23,249 bases of DNA from a virus. Position numbers and translations under genes: made by a program. The DNA lies in IMG/VR virus record IMGVR_UViG_3300030329_001612, positions 4,637-27,885 of that record; one strand, written 5' to 3'. The notes beneath the pieces were generated by a model. The model did not search any database and had not been told where the DNA came from. It was given only the letters and a program-made list of their open reading frames with translations. Shown piece after piece: positions 3,133 through 23,249 of the stretch (its first letter is position 1; each line of letters opens with the position of its first letter).

Positions 3133-4917
3133 ATGGTAAAAAGATTAGTTAAAAGAGCATTCAGACCAGTTCGTAAAATAGCAAAAAAGATTATACCTAA
3201 AGAGGTAAGACCTTTCTTACCTTATATCGCTGCTGGCTTTGGACCTTCTACTGCAGGTTTAAGTTTTGGTAGTGGGTTGGGAACAGCATTAGGAAAAAGA
3301 GCATTAATAGCAGCAGCAACATCTGCAGCTACGGATGAGCAAGGTGATCCATTAAGAGCAGGATTATTAGCAATTGCCCCTAATGTAGCAGCCGAAGGTT
3401 TAGGTGCAGTTGCAAGTAAGTTTCCCATGGCAGGAGTTGATGATCCAGGAGCAACTTTTAGCTTTGCTGAAAAAATAGGTGAAGGTGCAAGAAGAGGGGC
3501 AGATTTTATTGAAAGACAAGGTGCAGTAAAAACAATAGGTGCACAAACAGCAATAGATCAATCTGCAAAGTTTGCAGAAATTAGACAAGATGAAATAGAT
3601 AAGTATAACGAAGAATTAAGAAAACAAGGTGTGTTAGATAAAACTAAAAGAAGAACATCAATCTTAAATATTTATTTAAATGCAGGTTACGAACCTGATT
3701 ATGTAAATAGTATGTTAGATAGATATGGATATGATAAAGGTGGTCTTGCAATGTTTAAAAATATGACTCCTAGAATGCAAGGTTTTAAAGCTCCAAAGTC
3801 TGCTACTTCTTTGTTTAGAAAAAAGCCAGACGATATTGAATATACAGCTCTCTTGGAAGGAATTGAAATAGATGATGATAATGATGATGATGATAAAGAT
3901 AATAAAAAAAGAAGAAAAGGCAAAAAAGATGAACCAGTAGAGGTAAGTGTAGTAAAAGAAGAACCTGATTTTGTAGAGGCTATGTTAGCTGCTAAATCTG
4001 GAGTTGAACAAGCTTTTGGAATACCATTTAGTGGTGTAGCACCAGCAGAGTTTAAAAGATTTGCTAGAGGTGGTGAAGTAGAAATAGAAGAAGAAACAGA
4101 AGATTTAGGTATTAGAGATTTCATGAGAGACCAAGGAGTTGAATATGGTGACCAAGTGTCTAACACTCAAAACGATAGAATTTTAGAAATGCTTTTTGAA
4201 AAATATTTAGAAATGGGATTATCTCCTAAAGATGCTGCAGAGGCAGCACAAAACGAATTTGATAGAATGAGTAGAAAATCTGATGAAGGTATTATGCAAA
4301 TGGCATCAGGATATAAAACTGACATAGAAGAAATGTATGAACAATATGTTTTTGAAATGGAAGAACAAGGATTACAACCAATGTCTTTCAGAGAATTTAT
4401 GGATCAAGCTAGATCTGGTATGGCTGATGGTGGTGAAGTATCCATAGGTAAAATAGAAATGTTAATTAAAAGAGGCGCTGATAATGATCTTATAAAAGAA
4501 TATACTGGCGCTGCAGATGGTGTAATTGATCAAATAAGAGATGCCATGGAAAGAAAAAAAACTAATATGGCTGATGGCGGTATAATGAGTCCAGAAGAAT
4601 ATTTTGAAGGTAAAAGAAAATATCAAAATAAAAAAGGTAAAGAAAGAATGAGAAGAGAGTATGAGGAATACCGAGACAGAATGAAGTATGGTCCTAGAGA
4701 TGAAGCTAAAGATGGTGGTATAATGGAAAAAGATATGAGAGGTGGTGGATTTATACCTGAAGGTACAAAAGAGAGAGCTGATGATGTACCAGCAAGATTA
4801 AGTAAAAATGAATTTGTAATGACAGCAGATGCTGTTAGAGCAGCAGGTGGTGGAAGTGTTAACAAAGGCGCAAAAAGAATGTATGATATGATGTATAGTC
4901 TGGAAGGAAAAGTATAA
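3133..4917 (+). CDS. Large putative internal virion protein with repeated GG motifs, 594 aa
   Basis: The N terminus is strongly basic (MVKRLVKRAFRPVRKIAKKI), followed by a Gly/Ala-rich, weakly hydrophobic stretch to about residue 95. An acidic-then-basic run (IDDDNDDDDKDNKKRRKGKK) sits at about 246-265. Six copies of a short x-GG-hydrophobic motif occur: KGGLA near 202, ARGGEV near 311, ADGGEV near 431, ADGGIM near 480, KDGGIM near 526 and RGGGFI near 536. The C terminus, around DDVPARLSKNEFVMTADAV at 550-568 and then AGGGSVNKGAKRM, is an ending I know from marine phage virion proteins. The gene overlaps the next by TAATG. Position and composition suggest an internal or ejected virion protein; no enzyme motif is visible. 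Confidence 0.6.
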   Translation: MVKRLVKRAFRPVRKIAKKIIPKEVRPFLPYIAAGFGPSTAGLSFGSGLGTALGKRALIAAATSAATDEQGDPLRAGLLAIAPNVAAEGLGAVASKFPMAGVDDPGATFSFAEKIGEGARRGADFIERQGAVKTIGAQTAIDQSAKFAEIRQDEIDKYNEELRKQGVLDKTKRRTSILNIYLNAGYEPDYVNSMLDRYGYDKGGLAMFKNMTPRMQGFKAPKSATSLFRKKPDDIEYTALLEGIEIDDDNDDDDKDNKKRRKGKKDEPVEVSVVKEEPDFVEAMLAAKSGVEQAFGIPFSGVAPAEFKRFARGGEVEIEEETEDLGIRDFMRDQGVEYGDQVSNTQNDRILEMLFEKYLEMGLSPKDAAEAAQNEFDRMSRKSDEGIMQMASGYKTDIEEMYEQYVFEMEEQGLQPMSFREFMDQARSGMADGGEVSIGKIEMLIKRGADNDLIKEYTGAADGVIDQIRDAMERKKTNMADGGIMSPEEYFEGKRKYQNKKGKERMRREYEEYRDRMKYGPRDEAKDGGIMEKDMRGGGFIPEGTKERADDVPARLSKNEFVMTADAVRAAGGGSVNKGAKRMYDMMYSLEGKV

Positions 4918-10961: not shown

Positions 10962-11156
10962 ATGGACATGAAACCAAAGACAACAAGAGAACATATATTA
11001 TCCCTGTATGGACACATATCAGGAGTGAAAAAGAATTTAACTCACGTACACAAAGATGTAGATAAATTGGGCGGCAAGATAGATAAAATCTATTGGGTTC
11101 TTTTGACTGTTGCGGGAACTGCAGTACTCTTTGTTTTAGAGAGGATGTTTGGATGA
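10962..11156 (+). CDS. Holin-like small membrane protein, 64 aa
   Basis: The first 40 residues are charged and helical (GHISGVKKNLTHVHKDVDKL), followed by one transmembrane segment at about 44-61 (VLLTVAGTAVLFVLERMFG). A short coiled coil followed by a single C-terminal membrane span is the layout of XhlA-like holin or holin-associated proteins. The stop overlaps the start of an M15 peptidase (ATGA), which supports a lysis role. AGAGG lies upstream of ATG 10962; an in-frame ATG two codons later is possible. Holin activity is inferred from topology and neighbour only. Confidence 0.6.
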   Translation: MDMKPKTTREHILSLYGHISGVKKNLTHVHKDVDKLGGKIDKIYWVLLTVAGTAVLFVLERMFG

Positions 11157-11605
11157 AATTAAGTTTAAACTTTTCTTTAAAAGAATTAACTGCTTCGCAG
11201 ACAGCGGATCGTAAAGGTATTGATAATACACCAACAGAAGAACATATAGAAAATTTAAAATTACTTTGTGAAAATATTTTACAACCAACTCGTGATGAGT
11301 GGGGTATTATAAGCGTGTCCTCGGGCTACAGATCACCAGAATTATGTGTAGCAATCGGCAGCTCTGAACGATCGCAGCATGCACGTGGCCAGGCGGCAGA
11401 CTTCGAATGTCATCGTGTAGATAACAAGATGCTATTTGAGTGGATTACTAATGAGCTAGATTACGACCAAGCAATTTTAGAATTTTATAATGGCACACCC
11501 GATAGTGGTTGGATTCATGTATCTTATAACAAAGATGGTAATCGTAAACAAAAACTACGAGCATTCCGTAACGACGCCGGTAAGACTCAATACGAAGAGA
11601 TTTAG
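11153..11605 (+). CDS. Peptidase M15_3-family zinc peptidase (endolysin)
   Basis: The 150-residue product has the signature of the M15 D-Ala-D-Ala carboxypeptidase-like family. SGYRS occurs at 57-61, SQHARGQAADF at 74-84 supplies zinc ligands His76 and Asp83, and WIHVSY at 120-125 supplies the third ligand His122. The length is normal for single-domain phage M15_3 enzymes, with no separate cell-wall-binding domain or signal peptide. It should cut peptide cross-links in Gram-negative peptidoglycan. I chose ATG 11153 because it overlaps the holin-like gene's TGA as ATGA; a longer reading from an upstream non-ATG codon would overlap that gene by 64 bases. Bases around the catalytic motif are much richer in G+C than the surrounding sequence. 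Confidence 0.9.
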   Translation: MKLSLNFSLKELTASQTADRKGIDNTPTEEHIENLKLLCENILQPTRDEWGIISVSSGYRSPELCVAIGSSERSQHARGQAADFECHRVDNKMLFEWITNELDYDQAILEFYNGTPDSGWIHVSYNKDGNRKQKLRAFRNDAGKTQYEEI

Positions 11606-11608
11606 CTT

Positions 11609-11986
11609 ATGAAAAATAGTCTTCTGGTGCACAAGCACTTAATCATTCGCGCCGAGGCTAGTCGACCACCGACAGATGAAGAGTATCTAAAAAATTGGAT
11701 GATAGATTTTATAGAGTCCATAGATATGAAAATATTTATGGGTCCTTATGTAAAGTATTGTGCCATGGATGGTAACAGAGGTATTACAGCTGTAGCAATT
11801 ATAGAAACCTCACACATAGCAATGCATATATGGGATGAACCTAAACCTGCGTTAGTGCAAATGGATGTTTATTCTTGTGGTGAATTTGATCACACAGATA
11901 TTTGTAAAAAATTAATGAGTGATTTTGATATCCATAAAATAGAATACAAATATTTAAATAGAGAGACAGGACTTGTAGATCTTTAA
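11609..11986 (+). CDS. speD: SpeD-family pyruvoyl-dependent decarboxylase (S-adenosylmethionine decarboxylase-like)
   Basis: The 125-residue product matches the small class 1B SpeD fold in length and motifs: ETSHIAMHIW at 66-75 and VYSCGEFD at 87-94. In this family the precursor cuts itself before a serine, which becomes the pyruvoyl cofactor; here that is Ser68, followed by His69 and His73, with the catalytic Cys at 90. Typical SpeD has Glu-Ser at the cleavage point, whereas this protein has Thr-Ser with the Glu one position earlier. AdoMet decarboxylase supplies aminopropyl groups for spermidine, but SpeD homologues that decarboxylate ornithine or arginine are known, so the substrate is uncertain. 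It follows the endolysin by three bases, implying late expression, and could supply polyamines for DNA packaging (inference). Confidence 0.85.
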   Translation: MKNSLLVHKHLIIRAEASRPPTDEEYLKNWMIDFIESIDMKIFMGPYVKYCAMDGNRGITAVAIIETSHIAMHIWDEPKPALVQMDVYSCGEFDHTDICKKLMSDFDIHKIEYKYLNRETGLVDL

Positions 11987-19824: not shown

Positions 19825-21683
19825 GAAGTACACAAATACCCCTATTTACCCCTGAAACAGAATGGGTCATGCCAGATGAACTAAAAGATCTGCGCGGAGC
19901 CAAAGAAATAGCAATAGATTTAGAAACTAACGACCCACTCTTGAAAGAGTTAGGCTCTGGTAATGTAACTGGAAAAGGGCACATTGCTGGCGTTGCGGTG
20001 GCCGTAGAAGGCTGGTCAGGCTATTATCCTATACACCACGAGCAAGGTGGTAATATGGACAAAAATCTGGTGTTAAACTGGCTAAAAGATTTGTTTACAC
20101 AAGAAGATACAACCTTCATTTTTCACAATGCTATGTACGATATTTGTTGGTTAAGGTCAGCAGGACTGACCATAAAAGGACCCATAATGGACACGATGAT
20201 AGCAGCATCCTTGATAGACGAAAACAGAATGAGCTATCAATTAAATGCCTTATCTAAACATTACGTTGGCATAGGTAAAGATGAAAAAATTTTATTAGAA
20301 GCAGCAAAAGAGTATGGATTAGATGCTAAAGCAGATATGTGGAGATTACCACCAATGTTTGTAGGTCAATATGCAGAGCGTGATGCAGAAGCAACTTTAA
20401 AACTTTGGCAAAGATTAAAAGTAGAACTATACAATCAAGAATTAATGGATGTATTTAACTTAGAAACAAAATTATTTCCATGTCTTGTTGATATGAGATT
20501 TAAAGGTGTAAGAGTTGATTTAGAAAAAGCACAAAATATTAAACAAAATTTAATTAAAAGGGAAGAAAAAATTATACAAAATATAAAAAAATTAACTGGT
20601 GTTGACGTAGAAATTATGGCAGCCAGATCTATAGCAAAAGCCTTTGATAAGTTAAAACTTCCATACGATAGAACAGAAAAAAGTAAAGAACCAAGTTTTA
20701 CAAAAAACTTTTTACAGAACCATCCACATGAATTAGGAAGATCAATAGCTGAAGCAAGAGAATTAAACAAAGCTCACACTACATTTATAGATTCAATAAC
20801 CAAACATGCAGTTGATGGTAGAATACATGCAGACATAAATCAAATTAGATCAGACCAAGGTGGCACGGTTACAGGTAGATTTAGTATGAGTAATCCAAAC
20901 TTACAACAGATACCCGCAAGACATCCTGAACTTGGTCCAATGATTAGATCTATATTTATTCCAGAAGAAAAACATGTTTGGGGTTCATTTGACTACTCAC
21001 AACAAGAACCAAGAATTTTAGTGCATTACGCAAAACTGCAGAATTTGGACGGAGTTGATGAAATTGTAGACGCATACAACGCCGGAGACGCTGATTTCCA
21101 TCAGGTCGTGGCCGACATGGCAGGCATAGAACGGAAGCAAGCCAAGACGATTAATTTAGGTCTTATGTATGGAATGGGTAAAAATAAATTGATGGCTGAA
21201 CTAGGTTTGATGAAAGAGTCAGCAGAAAAATTAATTAGACAATATCATACTAAAGCTCCATTTGTAAAAAAACTAATGGACAATGTATCTAGAAAAGCAA
21301 ACGACAGAGGTAAGATTAGAACTTTATTAGGACGTGCATGTCATTTTGATTTATGGCAGCCAGTACAATTTGGTGTATTCAAACCTTTACCACTCGAACA
21401 AGCAAGGAAAGAATATGATGAACCATTAAAGCGTGCGTTTACATACAAAGCATTAAATAAATTAATACAAGGATCTGCGGCTGATATGACAAAAAAATCT
21501 ATGGTAGCTCTTTATGAAAATGGTATAATACCACACATACAGATTCATGATGAGGTAGATATTTCTGTTGAGTCTGATGTTAAAGCAGAAGAAATAATTA
21601 AGATTATGGAAGCTGCTGTTGAATTAAAGGTTCCTAATAAAGTTGATTATGAAAAGGGGGCTAACTGGGGTGAAATTAAGTAA
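19821..21683 (+). CDS. polA: Family A DNA polymerase with 3'-5' exonuclease, Leu762 type
   Basis: The 620-residue product starts with GTG, overlapping the DUF3310 stop, with AAGGAGAG upstream. The exonuclease domain has AIDLET (Asp33, Glu35), FHNAMYD (Asp107) and QYAERD (Tyr184, Asp188), the DEDDy set. The polymerase domain has TGRFSMSNPNLQQIP near 351-365, motif A DYSQQEPR at 391-398, motif B from Arg438 through Lys442, Leu446 and Tyr450, and motif C IHDE with Asp577-Glu578. Leu446 aligns with E. coli PolI residue 762, which is Phe in E. coli and Tyr in T7. There is no 5'-3' exonuclease domain, as usual for phages. It should be the replicative polymerase. A patch of higher G+C covers the region between motifs A and B. 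Confidence 0.96.
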   Translation: MRSTQIPLFTPETEWVMPDELKDLRGAKEIAIDLETNDPLLKELGSGNVTGKGHIAGVAVAVEGWSGYYPIHHEQGGNMDKNLVLNWLKDLFTQEDTTFIFHNAMYDICWLRSAGLTIKGPIMDTMIAASLIDENRMSYQLNALSKHYVGIGKDEKILLEAAKEYGLDAKADMWRLPPMFVGQYAERDAEATLKLWQRLKVELYNQELMDVFNLETKLFPCLVDMRFKGVRVDLEKAQNIKQNLIKREEKIIQNIKKLTGVDVEIMAARSIAKAFDKLKLPYDRTEKSKEPSFTKNFLQNHPHELGRSIAEARELNKAHTTFIDSITKHAVDGRIHADINQIRSDQGGTVTGRFSMSNPNLQQIPARHPELGPMIRSIFIPEEKHVWGSFDYSQQEPRILVHYAKLQNLDGVDEIVDAYNAGDADFHQVVADMAGIERKQAKTINLGLMYGMGKNKLMAELGLMKESAEKLIRQYHTKAPFVKKLMDNVSRKANDRGKIRTLLGRACHFDLWQPVQFGVFKPLPLEQARKEYDEPLKRAFTYKALNKLIQGSAADMTKKSMVALYENGIIPHIQIHDEVDISVESDVKAEEIIKIMEAAVELKVPNKVDYEKGANWGEIK

Positions 21684-22333
21684 TGGCATATTTAAATGCA
21701 AACATACCGGCGACATACGCCCAAATAAGAAAAGAATATCTCTATGATCTTAAAAAACATCATGGCGAAGTTGAAGATTGTATTATCTTTGGTCTTACGA
21801 GTATGGGCGGGAGGGCTATACTTTTTCACGCTATTATGGGTAACGGTGCAATCTTTTATCGCCTACCTATTAGCGCGTTTATTCAACAAGGATATAGACC
21901 AGAAGACGTTCCCAAGCGACGTCTTGATGAATTGGAGCTTTGGAATTCTTTCTCTTATTATCCTACTGTTATTACTTGGAATATTTTAAGTGCAGCCTCT
22001 GGTAAATACATTGGTAAAGATAAAAAATGGCACCATGGTAGATATCTATTTACCGTTGACTGGGCTCACCCAGATGGTAATATACTAGATACTGACCATT
22101 CAGAGATTCCGCACGAACATAAGTGCGCTCACATAATTGCTCTTGATGATGGCAATTTTGCAGCACAACCAAACAATAGATGTATATGGGATTTACCTTC
22201 TTTCACTGTGAAAGACAATATTCCTGATTGGAAAGTGCAAACTAATGAGTGGAACGTTGAAGATACAGGTAAGTGGAAAACAGAAGATACTGATAGTTTC
22301 TTCTATGAAATTGAGGAAAAAAAAGATGTATAA
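21683..22333 (+). CDS. Conserved-looking phage protein of unknown function, 216 aa
   Basis: The gene overlaps the polymerase stop as TAATG. The product is globular with an alpha/beta start (YAQIRKEYLYDLKKHHGEVE), hydrophobic strands (CIIFGLTSMGGRAILFHAIM), a Trp/His-rich middle (KKWHHGRYLFTVDWAHPDGN) and an acidic C-terminal tail (EDTGKWKTEDTDSFFYEIEE). There is no membrane span, and His/Asp clusters near 130-165 could bind metal, but there is no motif that I can tie to an enzyme. Coupling to polA suggests a replication-time role. An out-of-frame hydrophobic reading inside the gene is a shadow. Confidence 0.8.
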   Translation: MAYLNANIPATYAQIRKEYLYDLKKHHGEVEDCIIFGLTSMGGRAILFHAIMGNGAIFYRLPISAFIQQGYRPEDVPKRRLDELELWNSFSYYPTVITWNILSAASGKYIGKDKKWHHGRYLFTVDWAHPDGNILDTDHSEIPHEHKCAHIIALDDGNFAAQPNNRCIWDLPSFTVKDNIPDWKVQTNEWNVEDTGKWKTEDTDSFFYEIEEKKDV

Positions 22334-22415
22334 AAAATTTATAGAACCAGTATGGTTTTGGATCAAAAAAATCTGGAGAAAAATAACAGATTTTATATCT
22401 AAAAAATTTGATTAA
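22326..22415 (+). CDS. Trp-rich basic mini-protein, 29 aa
   Basis: A 30-codon frame starts inside the end of the 216-aa gene, with GAGG at 22313-22316 nine bases upstream. The product has hydrophobic positions spaced 3-4 apart (Trp10, Ile13, Trp17, Ile20, Ile24) and many Lys, so it would form an amphipathic basic helix. Trp12 and Phe11 add further aromatic bulk. It could bind membranes or a host protein. Its size makes it uncertain, but a good ribosome site and a similar peptide 330 bases downstream favour a real gene. Confidence 0.5.
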   Translation: MYKKFIEPVWFWIKKIWRKITDFISKKFD

Positions 22416-22437
22416 TTCTTAACGCGCGTATAAGATA

Positions 22438-22465
22438 GGGTGATAACGGGAGACTGATATCACCC
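22438..22465 (+). promoter_or_regulatory. Stem-loop in a short noncoding gap before a small gene
   Basis: GGGTGATA at 22438-22445 pairs perfectly with TATCACCC at 22458-22465 around a 12-base loop that exposes GGGAG. No T-run follows, so it is not a standard terminator. A promoter-like TTGATT (22408-22413) and TATAAG (22429-22434), 15 bases apart, would start transcription near 22441, close to the 5' arm. It may stabilise an mRNA 5' end or control the gene at 22475; both are inference. Confidence 0.45.
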
Positions 22466-22474
22466 GCTAATAAT

Positions 22475-22645
22475 ATGAAAACAATACCCGACGCGATAAG
22501 CGATATAAAAAGGTTTACGAGAAGAGCGATAGATATACCATTATCTTGGATGGAACACATTGGTAGTAAGATGAATGTGTATGCCTGGAACAAGAGATGG
22601 GGAAATAGAAAAAAAGGCTATGGCTACAGAAACGAAGACTTGTAA
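22475..22645 (+). CDS. Small basic protein of unknown function, 56 aa
   Basis: A 57-codon frame follows the stem-loop by nine bases and has no clear Shine-Dalgarno site. The product is basic and aromatic, beginning MKTIPDAISDIKRFTRRAID, then LSWMEHIGSKMNVYAWNKRW and a Gly/Tyr-rich end. It has no Cys and no membrane span. It overlaps the Cys-rich 36-aa gene by 26 bases in another frame. The codon choice looks like its neighbours, which supports coding, but no family is recognised. Confidence 0.5.
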   Translation: MKTIPDAISDIKRFTRRAIDIPLSWMEHIGSKMNVYAWNKRWGNRKKGYGYRNEDL

Positions 22646-22730
22646 AAATTGTTACCACGAGTGCCATTGTGATGGAGACTTACACGCAGACGAATACGGC
22701 GTCTGTGTTTGTGATGAATGTAAATGTTAA
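22620..22730 (+). CDS. Cys-rich mini-protein, 36 aa, likely metal-binding
   Basis: The 37-codon frame encodes eight cysteines in 36 residues, at 8, 11, 15, 17, 29, 31, 34 and 36. They form two clusters, CKNCYHECHC and CVCDECKC, joined by an acidic linker (DGDLHADEYG). Paired Cys groups of this kind normally bind zinc or iron, as in zinc ribbons or rubredoxin-like knuckles; a metallothionein-like role is another possibility. The ribosome site is poor (AAAGG only two bases from the ATG), and the gene overlaps its upstream neighbour, so translation may be coupled. The regular Cys pattern is unlikely to arise by chance in AT-rich sequence. Confidence 0.65.
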   Translation: MATETKTCKNCYHECHCDGDLHADEYGVCVCDECKC

Positions 22731-22745
22731 TTAGGGAGTTTAGTT

Positions 22746-22823
22746 ATGAGATGGCTAAAAAAACTATGGAACCGTTACGTAAATTGGTTATTTAATGAGC
22801 ACAAAAAATATGAAAAAAAGTAA
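22746..22823 (+). CDS. Second Trp-rich basic mini-protein, 25 aa
   Basis: AGGGAG at 22733-22738 sits seven bases before the ATG, one of the best ribosome sites in the window. The 25-residue product (MRWLKKLWNRYVNWLFNEHK and five more, mostly Lys) has Trp3, Leu4, Leu7, Trp8, Tyr11, Val12 and Leu15 on one helix face and basic residues on the other. It overlaps the start of the coiled-coil gene by 29 bases, so it could also act as a leader that sets translation of that gene. It may be membrane-active. Confidence 0.5.
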   Translation: MRWLKKLWNRYVNWLFNEHKKYEKK

Positions 22824-23121
22824 AAGTAAATTAGATTGGTTCAAAAAAAATATAGTAATTGTGCCTGTTGTAGGAGCAATCCTAGCCGGGACTTTTACAT
22901 CTGTTAGATATGTATTAACTATGACAGACACTATTCAAGTTAATAAAGAAATATTAGAAACTGTAACACAAGATTTAGCACTTCAAAAAGAAGTACTTGC
23001 TGATATTAAAAATAGATTAGCAAGAGCAGAAGCAACATGGGATATGGCAGAAAATATATTCCAACAACTAGCAGACCAAGTAAGAAGACATGAATACGAT
23101 ATTAAAGACCTTTCTCGTTAA
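22795..23121 (+). CDS. Membrane-anchored coiled-coil protein, 108 aa
   Basis: A basic N terminus (KSKSKLDWFKK) precedes one transmembrane segment at about 19-42 (NIVIVPVVGAILAGTFTSV and following), after which residues 45-105 form a charged coiled coil (ILETVTQDLALQKEVLADI, RLARAEATWDMAENIFQQL). The positive-inside rule puts the coiled coil in the periplasm. This is the layout of i-spanins (Rz-like), although it lies far from the endolysin, and an anchor protein for another complex is equally possible. No good ribosome site precedes ATG 22795; coupling to the 25-aa gene is likely, and ATG 22810 is an alternative start. Its 3' end overlaps the next gene by 32 bases out of frame. Confidence 0.7.
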   Translation: MSTKNMKKSKSKLDWFKKNIVIVPVVGAILAGTFTSVRYVLTMTDTIQVNKEILETVTQDLALQKEVLADIKNRLARAEATWDMAENIFQQLADQVRRHEYDIKDLSR

Positions 23122-23249
23122 TTTAACGTGGATATTATTTTTCTTGTTTGTGGTGACATCATCAGCACAAGCACGTAACGAATATTTAAACGACGGCACA
23201 AATACGTGTGATCAAGGTAGCTGGGAAGCCTATACAGAAGTTAGACAAT
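23090..23249 (+). CDS. Signal-peptide protein, N-terminal part only (runs off the window)
   Basis: An ATG at 23090 opens a frame that stays open to the end of the window (53 codons). It begins with a classic signal peptide: MNTILK, a hydrophobic core NLTWILFFLFVV and a cleavage site TSSAQA before RNEYLNDG. The mature start contains one Cys (NTCDQGSWEAY) but no lipobox Cys at the cleavage point, so it is not an Rz1-like lipoprotein. It would be exported to the periplasm or outer membrane. The out-of-frame overlap with a membrane-anchored coiled-coil gene recalls Rz/Rz1 pairs, but the missing lipobox argues against that. No function can be given from this fragment. Confidence 0.7.
   Translation, partial: MNTILKTFLVNLTWILFFLFVVTSSAQARNEYLNDGTNTCDQGSWEAYTEVRQ

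Follow-up and report, generated by a model that had tools for sequence, protein, structure and literature searches.

A conserved set of small genes in an uncultured ocean phage: a possible disruptin-like envelope module and its RNA hairpin

Disruptins are phage peptides described in PMC12819732, where they are said to be hard to predict. The same paper states that 13% of tailed phages of Gram-negative bacteria have no recognisable spanins. In spanins, cysteines are usual in either partner, according to PMC6139136. The locus described here belongs to a phage close to the HTVC023P-type pelagiphages, a type described in PMC9599517. It lies at the right-hand end of a DNA stretch of 23,249 nucleotides (hereafter, the window), which covers positions 4637-27885 of a 34,719-base IMG/VR virus record (the parent record, itself a fragment).

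The window encodes polymerase A, helicases, a primase, an M15 endolysin, and structural proteins. The polymerase A, primase, and helicase genes are homologous to those of HTVC023P-type pelagiphages, and the gene order around the polymerase is common to both. This gene content, together with the nucleotide similarity to Pelagibacter phage HTVC027P and to 023Pt_psg01 (80.5% and 67.0% identity, respectively, over about 63% of the right-hand 3.4 kb), places the window near this type. The phage of the window is an uncultured phage from the ocean, and its relatives infect SAR11, an abundant marine bacterium. The region with the small genes is best explained, if tentatively, as the point where a replication operon meets an envelope/lysis operon. 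Elsewhere in the window, positions 11609-11986 hold an S-adenosylmethionine decarboxylase-like gene (phrog_3125, E 2.1e-18), possibly a polyamine-related auxiliary gene.

Six small genes at the right-hand end of the window

A preliminary description of the window had proposed a cluster of six small genes, and all six open reading frames (T1, B56, C36, T2, CC, and SP) were found where it had placed them (Table 1). The left neighbour of the cluster, the 216-aa gene, is labelled "PurM" in the pelagiphage records of HTVC027P and 023Pt_psg01 and "ferredoxin" in PHROGs. The overlaps are 8 nt between the 216-aa gene and T1, 26 nt between B56 and C36, 29 nt between T2 and CC, and 32 nt between CC and SP, with gaps of 59 nt from T1 to B56 and 15 nt from C36 to T2. 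Four of the six neighbouring pairs therefore overlap; the five reported previously are reached only if the 1-nt overlap of the polymerase and 216-aa genes is counted. The reading frame of C36 is already open from 22575, and T2 is preceded by GGGAG, a Shine-Dalgarno-like sequence. A short run of N follows just after 23249 in the parent record.

Table 1. Features of the small-gene cluster and its left neighbour, in window coordinates.
Feature	Position	Strand	Description
216-aa gene	21683..22333	+	left neighbour of T1; phrog_3704, E 9.8e-75; pN/pS 0.19
T1	22326..22415	+	29-aa cationic amphipathic Trp-rich peptide
Structured element	22416..22474	+	near-palindrome TCTTA..TAAGA, then hairpin GGGTGATAAC-GGGAGACT-GATATCACCC, immediately 5' of the B56 ATG
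B56	22475..22645	+	basic 56-aa protein, motif WNKRW.NR..GYGY
C36	22620..22730	+	eight-Cys 36-aa protein, CxxCxxxCHCx(4)HxDxYGxCxCxxCxC
T2	22746..22823	+	25-aa cationic Trp-rich peptide
CC	22795..23121	+	108 aa; hydrophobic N-terminal segment, then coiled-coil-like stretch
SP	23090..23249, on to 23557 in the parent record	+	155-aa protein, N-terminal signal sequence

The codon-level conservation check proposed in the preliminary description was carried out on codon alignments. The in-frame pN/pS values were 0.34 for T1, 0.29 for B56, 0.32 for C36, 0.34 for T2, 0.35 for CC, and 0.32 for SP, compared to 0.69-1.81, with many stops, in the two shifted frames of these genes. The 216-aa gene served as the control in the same test (Table 1). 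The alignments held 7 to 52 sequences per gene after removal of sequences that were >97% identical or gapped in core columns; the T1 value rests on 7 and the B56 value on 47 nr97 sequences, and the T2 set, which was collected by HMM, takes in single T peptides of other phages. For CC, 261 of 276 candidate stretches were gathered as relatives (80 kept), and for B56, 98 of 103 (80 kept).

These sets had been picked by HMM on open frames, and the test was therefore redone from nucleotide matches alone. It covered T1, B56, C36, T2, and CC, as SP is cut by the window end, and matches covering <80% of a gene were dropped. In every distinct match, one frame stayed open across at least 80% of the query (7/7 for T1, 45/45 for B56, 60/60 for C36, 23/23 for T2, and 108/108 for CC). 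A cruder version with a fixed phase had flagged 2, 3, 4, 2, and 18 matches, respectively, as broken. The three-frame version found an intact frame in each of the flagged matches, and the flags are thus read as gapped alignments in a fixed phase. Frames broken in close relatives, which the preliminary description had named as evidence against its claim, were accordingly absent in these five genes. All six frames are genes under purifying selection. Whole genes do vary between relatives: C36 is missing from one locus (L094), and other loci lack B56, with the structured element directly before C36 or T2.

The T peptides, B56, and C36

T1 and T2 resemble each other and belong to a fast-evolving set of cationic amphipathic Trp-rich peptides. 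Their profiles align (hhalign, A5 against A4, probability 95.9), with the qualification that A5 mixes T1 with single T peptides and that Lys/Trp-rich profiles of 25 residues can match by composition. In most relatives, the 216-aa gene is directly followed by a short basic peptide rich in Trp or Lys, and divergent analogues of T1 occupy this place in many of them. Many relatives have only one T peptide, immediately 5' of CC. T2 is probably a paralogue of T1, and the element, B56, and C36 may have been inserted at this site as a cassette, leaving the T gene in two copies.

The hydrophobic moment over 14 residues is 0.87 for T1, 0.74 for T2, and 0.81 for B56, and the net charges are +5, +6, and +6, respectively. 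By these values, all three have the short cationic amphipathic helix that characterizes disruptins. A filter for amphipathicity, charge, and Trp was passed by 15 of the 23 open reading frames adjoining CC, compared to 27 of 450 control frames; this test favours the candidates, because the most amphipathic frame was kept where several adjoined CC. A frame of 20-45 aa lies immediately before CC in only 23 of 54 nr90 loci. B56 has 98 relatives in viral contigs.

Among 16 aligned members of the C36 family, 13 positions are invariant, namely eight Cys, two His, Asp, Tyr, and Gly. A degenerate DNA pattern of this core matched at least 119 viral stretches, and the same exact pattern gave 0 matches in 84,980 bacterial and archaeal species genomes. 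By this pattern, C36 appears to represent a large virus-restricted microprotein family. The 80 loci examined encode 76 distinct proteins of 32-72 aa, which often carry a further CxxC tail. Within 3 kb of C36, these loci have the 216-aa gene (48/80), B56 (5), CC (6), or a T2-like peptide (20).

C36 also occurs just 5' of the capsid gene in the T7-like pelagiphages HTVC041P, Eyrgjafa, and Gjalp, and in KM23-C739. In KM23-C739, the upstream gene that overlaps C36 resembles, by eye, the C-terminal part of B56, and B56-C36 therefore looks like a small module common to two phage groups. The preliminary description had expected annotation pipelines to skip most of the cluster. This is borne out by C36 in HTVC041P (OR420753.1 17805-17912, L084) and KM23-C739 (KT997847.1 21461-21568, L171), where it has no CDS of its own beside the capsid gene. 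The expectation goes too far for several other homologues, since a T1-like gene and CC are annotated in 023Pt_psg01, CC and SP in HTVC027P, and C36 in Eyrgjafa and Gjalp. Cys-rich parts are fused to T-like helices, in both orders, in a number of phages and contigs (L026, L033, L034, HTVC027P gp12, HTVC041P, Eyrgjafa gp29, L243, L259, L240, L260, L273, and L305).

None of the 16 members matched a Pfam family at E up to 1, including the curated metallothionein model, and assignment of C36 to the metallothioneins thus has no Pfam support. There was no PDB match for C36 and no convincing PHROG match for the family. The AlphaFold2 model of C36 was of low confidence and too poor for comparison.

A hairpin element upstream of B56

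The preliminary description had overlooked a structured RNA element between T1 and B56. The fold z of this element is -3.35. The hairpin loop GGGAGACU is invariant, as is the loop GGGAGACT, and the stem covaries. In an alignment of 22 hairpin sequences, 99.7% of the cells were paired, and the covariation was 0.266, compared to a mean of 0.097 for shuffled alignments and at most 0.070 when the alignment was slid. G-U pairs occur in the stem, an argument for RNA. The near-palindrome is almost constant, and the alignment is therefore uninformative on its pairing.

The covariance model R1 gave 46 matches in 51 sources, many of which had supplied the model, and its only match in the window is this element. 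A pattern scan found 60 stretches, in which the element precedes B56, truncated B56, C36, T2, or unrelated genes. As the element precedes whichever of the cassette genes B56, C36, and T2 comes first, it is a feature of the operon rather than of any single gene. Apart from the window, the hairpin sites include HTVC027P (L164) 1842, 023Pt_psg01 (L165) 12971, HTVC120P (L424) 20650, and L425-L488. In many marine phages the hairpin lies just 5' of a start codon, and the promoters are host-type or T7-like. Upstream of the element, four loci (L137, L159, L184, and L219) have a perfect TTGACA-17-TATAAA, with the loop 17 nt past the -10, and in L488 a TTGACA/TATAAA-type promoter lies directly upstream of a similar hairpin. 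No -35 was found for the window-type copies of the element. A second pattern, with another stem, matched 64 stretches, compared to 0 with a control loop; these stretches lie mostly between the capsid and tail-tube genes of T7-like phages.

At the gathering score, Rfam gave no match in the window and none at the element in six other loci. On the marine viral contig L137, positions 4655-4776 match Rfam RF02976 (Flavobacterium-1 RNA) with 93.2 bits. We found nothing in the open-licence literature on the pelagiphage hairpin, on phage metallothioneins, or on this gene cluster. A B56-specific riboswitch was rejected because the hairpin also precedes C36, T2, and unrelated genes. An intrinsic terminator was likewise rejected, as no terminator-like site was found, and antitermination of the boxA/boxB type was dropped because HTVC027P has the hairpin, yet B56 was found in no phage record. 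We infer that the element combines a promoter with a 5'-leader RNA hairpin, and the hairpin is possibly a general leader element of phage mRNAs. Widespread in phages and without an Rfam match, it may be the most novel part of the region. If confirmed, it would be a new cis-acting RNA element common to phages with host-type and T7-type promoters.

CC, SP, and the role of the cluster

At least 551 relatives of CC were confirmed in viral contigs. SP adjoins CC in 96 of 100 loci with distinct CC, and a second coiled-coil protein lies near CC in 72 of them. CC and SP share the same 32-nt overlap in 88 of the 94 loci that allowed its measurement. Loci with identical CC were dropped before endolysins were counted. 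Of the 51 distinct-CC loci with sufficient sequence, 29 have an M15 endolysin on the same strand as CC and at most 3 kb downstream (18/34 at 90% CC redundancy), and the other 22 have none in this interval; an M15 endolysin was upstream of CC in 1 of 69 loci. The M15 endolysin of the window itself is located at 11093-11605, about 11.5 kb from the cluster, and that of 023Pt_psg01 is likewise away from the CC cluster. The link to lysis is therefore a matter of gene neighbourhood in the relatives and not in the phage of the window.

The first part of the M15 endolysin frame is shared with the gene of a 64-aa coiled coil that has a C-terminal membrane segment (window 10962-11156). This coiled coil looks XhlA-like, but neither Pfam nor PHROGs gave a significant match. 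In the T7-like phage HTVC120P, the CC homologue sits between tail fibre gp38 and DNA maturase B gp52, the place where T7 has 17.5, 18, 18.5 (Rz), and 18.7. In T7-like phages, PHROGs assign no function to the genes beside CC homologues. Holin labels of the 3TM and XhlA types for neighbours of CC homologues were considered and set aside; Skadi gp35 has at most a sub-threshold XhlA match in Pfam, and PHROGs gave such neighbours no function or weak matches. Skadi-3 gp38 (L172 2688-3119) is labelled "peptidase M15" and is likely misannotated: it has no peptidase domain in Pfam and matches only a family of unknown function in PHROGs.

The hydrophobic N-terminal segment and coiled-coil-like stretch of CC fit the outline of an i-spanin. 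Its matches to Rz-like spanin profiles are weak (best E 0.0017; phrog_739 in 9, phrog_214 in 4, and phrog_89 in 3 of 19 members) and are mixed with generic coiled-coil matches. SP has four invariant Cys in an alignment of 33 sequences, and its AlphaFold2 model (pLDDT 61) was too poor for comparison. The predicted central beta-hairpin of SP occurs in two interchangeable versions (SWEAYTEVRQ.. and SFDVSIEQRD.., e.g., L001 and L055) on an otherwise conserved frame, as if a module were swapped. SP has no lipobox. A lipobox scan that recovered both positive controls, Rz1 of lambda and of T7, gave 0 candidates in the parent record (34.7-kb fragment, three pieces), HTVC027P, 023Pt_psg01, and HTVC120P, and one minus-strand candidate each in HTVC023P 1-49999 and Skadi-3. 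A stricter scan on part of the same set, to which these controls do not apply, likewise gave none. With no lipoprotein gene among these results, there is no support for a classical spanin pair, and we do not claim spanin membership for CC/SP.

Our preferred reading, which we hold tentatively, is that the cluster forms a module for envelope attack and lysis, with peptides that work much as disruptins do. In this view, T1, T2, and the basic helix of B56 would be amphipathic peptides that act on membranes and weaken the envelope as infection ends, and C36, fused to T peptides in several phages, would be their metal-binding partner. CC would be an inner-membrane coiled coil facing the periplasm, with SP as its periplasmic partner, and the two together would serve outer-membrane disruption in phages that lack a lipoprotein spanin. 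The element would provide the promoter and leader hairpin of the cassette operon. The preliminary description had suggested host-interaction or membrane proteins, and by sequence the small proteins do look envelope-type or membrane-active; its lysis option fits the endolysin linkage of the right half of the cluster in relatives. Several observations count against this reading: the distance of the endolysin from the cluster in the window and in 023Pt_psg01, the 22 loci with no M15 endolysin in the 3 kb downstream of CC, the small share of loci with a short frame right before CC, the weak and mixed spanin matches of CC, the PHROG neighbours of CC homologues that carry no function, and the occurrence of C36 5' of the capsid gene in T7-like phages, a place not associated with lysis.

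The same proteins could instead take over the host, a somewhat unlikely alternative in which the peptides and the Cys-rich protein are made in early or mid-infection and bind host machinery or membranes, with C36 as a zinc-binding microprotein on a host enzyme. This is consistent with the location of the cluster after the DNA polymerase and 216-aa genes, with the frequent proximity of C36 to the latter, and with the virus-restricted pattern of C36; in addition, the early genes of HTVC027P are all of unknown function according to the transcriptome paper on that phage (PMC12753301). Against it, the CC/SP half, linked downstream to the endolysin, looks envelope-directed. That half might conceal a two-component spanin, with CC as the i-spanin, SP as a non-lipidated o-spanin, and the T peptides and C36 as unrelated riders. 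The i-spanin outline of CC with its weak spanin PHROG matches and the overlap of SP with CC argue for this, as do the four invariant Cys of SP, given that cysteines are usual in either spanin partner. We nevertheless regard it as quite unlikely, since SP has no lipobox, the parent record, HTVC027P, 023Pt_psg01, and HTVC120P gave no lipoprotein candidate, and the fusions tie C36 to the T peptides.

It is very improbable that C36 is a metallothionein-like protein for metal buffering or redox, surrounded by independent genes. Its eight invariant Cys, two invariant His, and frequent CxxC tail would suit such a role, but the Pfam and PDB searches gave no match, and the invariant Asp, Tyr, and Gly, like the fusions to helical peptides, point to a particular fold or partner. 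The chance that the frames are spurious or an assembly artefact is close to negligible. Short frames are common in A+T-rich DNA, and this stretch does contain a few spurious ones of 20-23 aa; chance origin is nevertheless refuted for T1, B56, C36, T2, CC, and SP by frame-specific purifying selection, by the intact frame in every distinct match, and by the occurrence of these genes in hundreds of independent contigs.

Under the preferred envelope/lysis reading, this conserved and ordered set of micro-genes offers testable candidates for opening the outer membrane of SAR11, and C36 stands out as a large, apparently virus-restricted microprotein family that lacks a Pfam, PDB, or convincing PHROG match. 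A wider proposal, which we consider unlikely, is that some of the most abundant ocean phages break the outer membrane without spanins by means of tandem amphipathic Trp/Lys micro-peptides, a virus-only metal-binding microprotein, and a membrane coiled coil, from transcripts that start with the widespread, undescribed hairpin (loop GGGAGACU) as a common leader.

Bacterial metallothioneins are short and Cys-rich, as is C36. C36 differs from them in its lack of a Pfam match, in its invariant His, Asp, Tyr, and Gly, and in its occurrence in viral contigs only in the searches performed here. CC resembles Rz/Rz1 spanins in its predicted N-terminal membrane segment and coiled coil, in an overlapping next gene whose product is predicted to be exported, and in weak profile matches, whereas the lipoprotein partner of these spanins was not found here. 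The T peptides resemble disruptins such as phiKT gp28 in being short, cationic, and helical, with an amphipathic character, and we propose that they too may act on the outer membrane; this likeness is one of peptide properties as described in PMC12819732. In contrast to disruptins, two or three such peptides are accompanied here by a Cys-rich protein and a putative membrane coiled coil. The closest loci, those of HTVC027P and 023Pt_psg01, have the same order as the window, with polymerase, 216-aa gene, small gene, CC, SP, and second coiled coil. They differ from it in lacking B56 and a separate C36, and their GGGAGACT hairpin stands before other genes. In HTVC027P gp12, a Cys-rich part is fused to a Trp-rich tail, whereas the window has these as separate genes.
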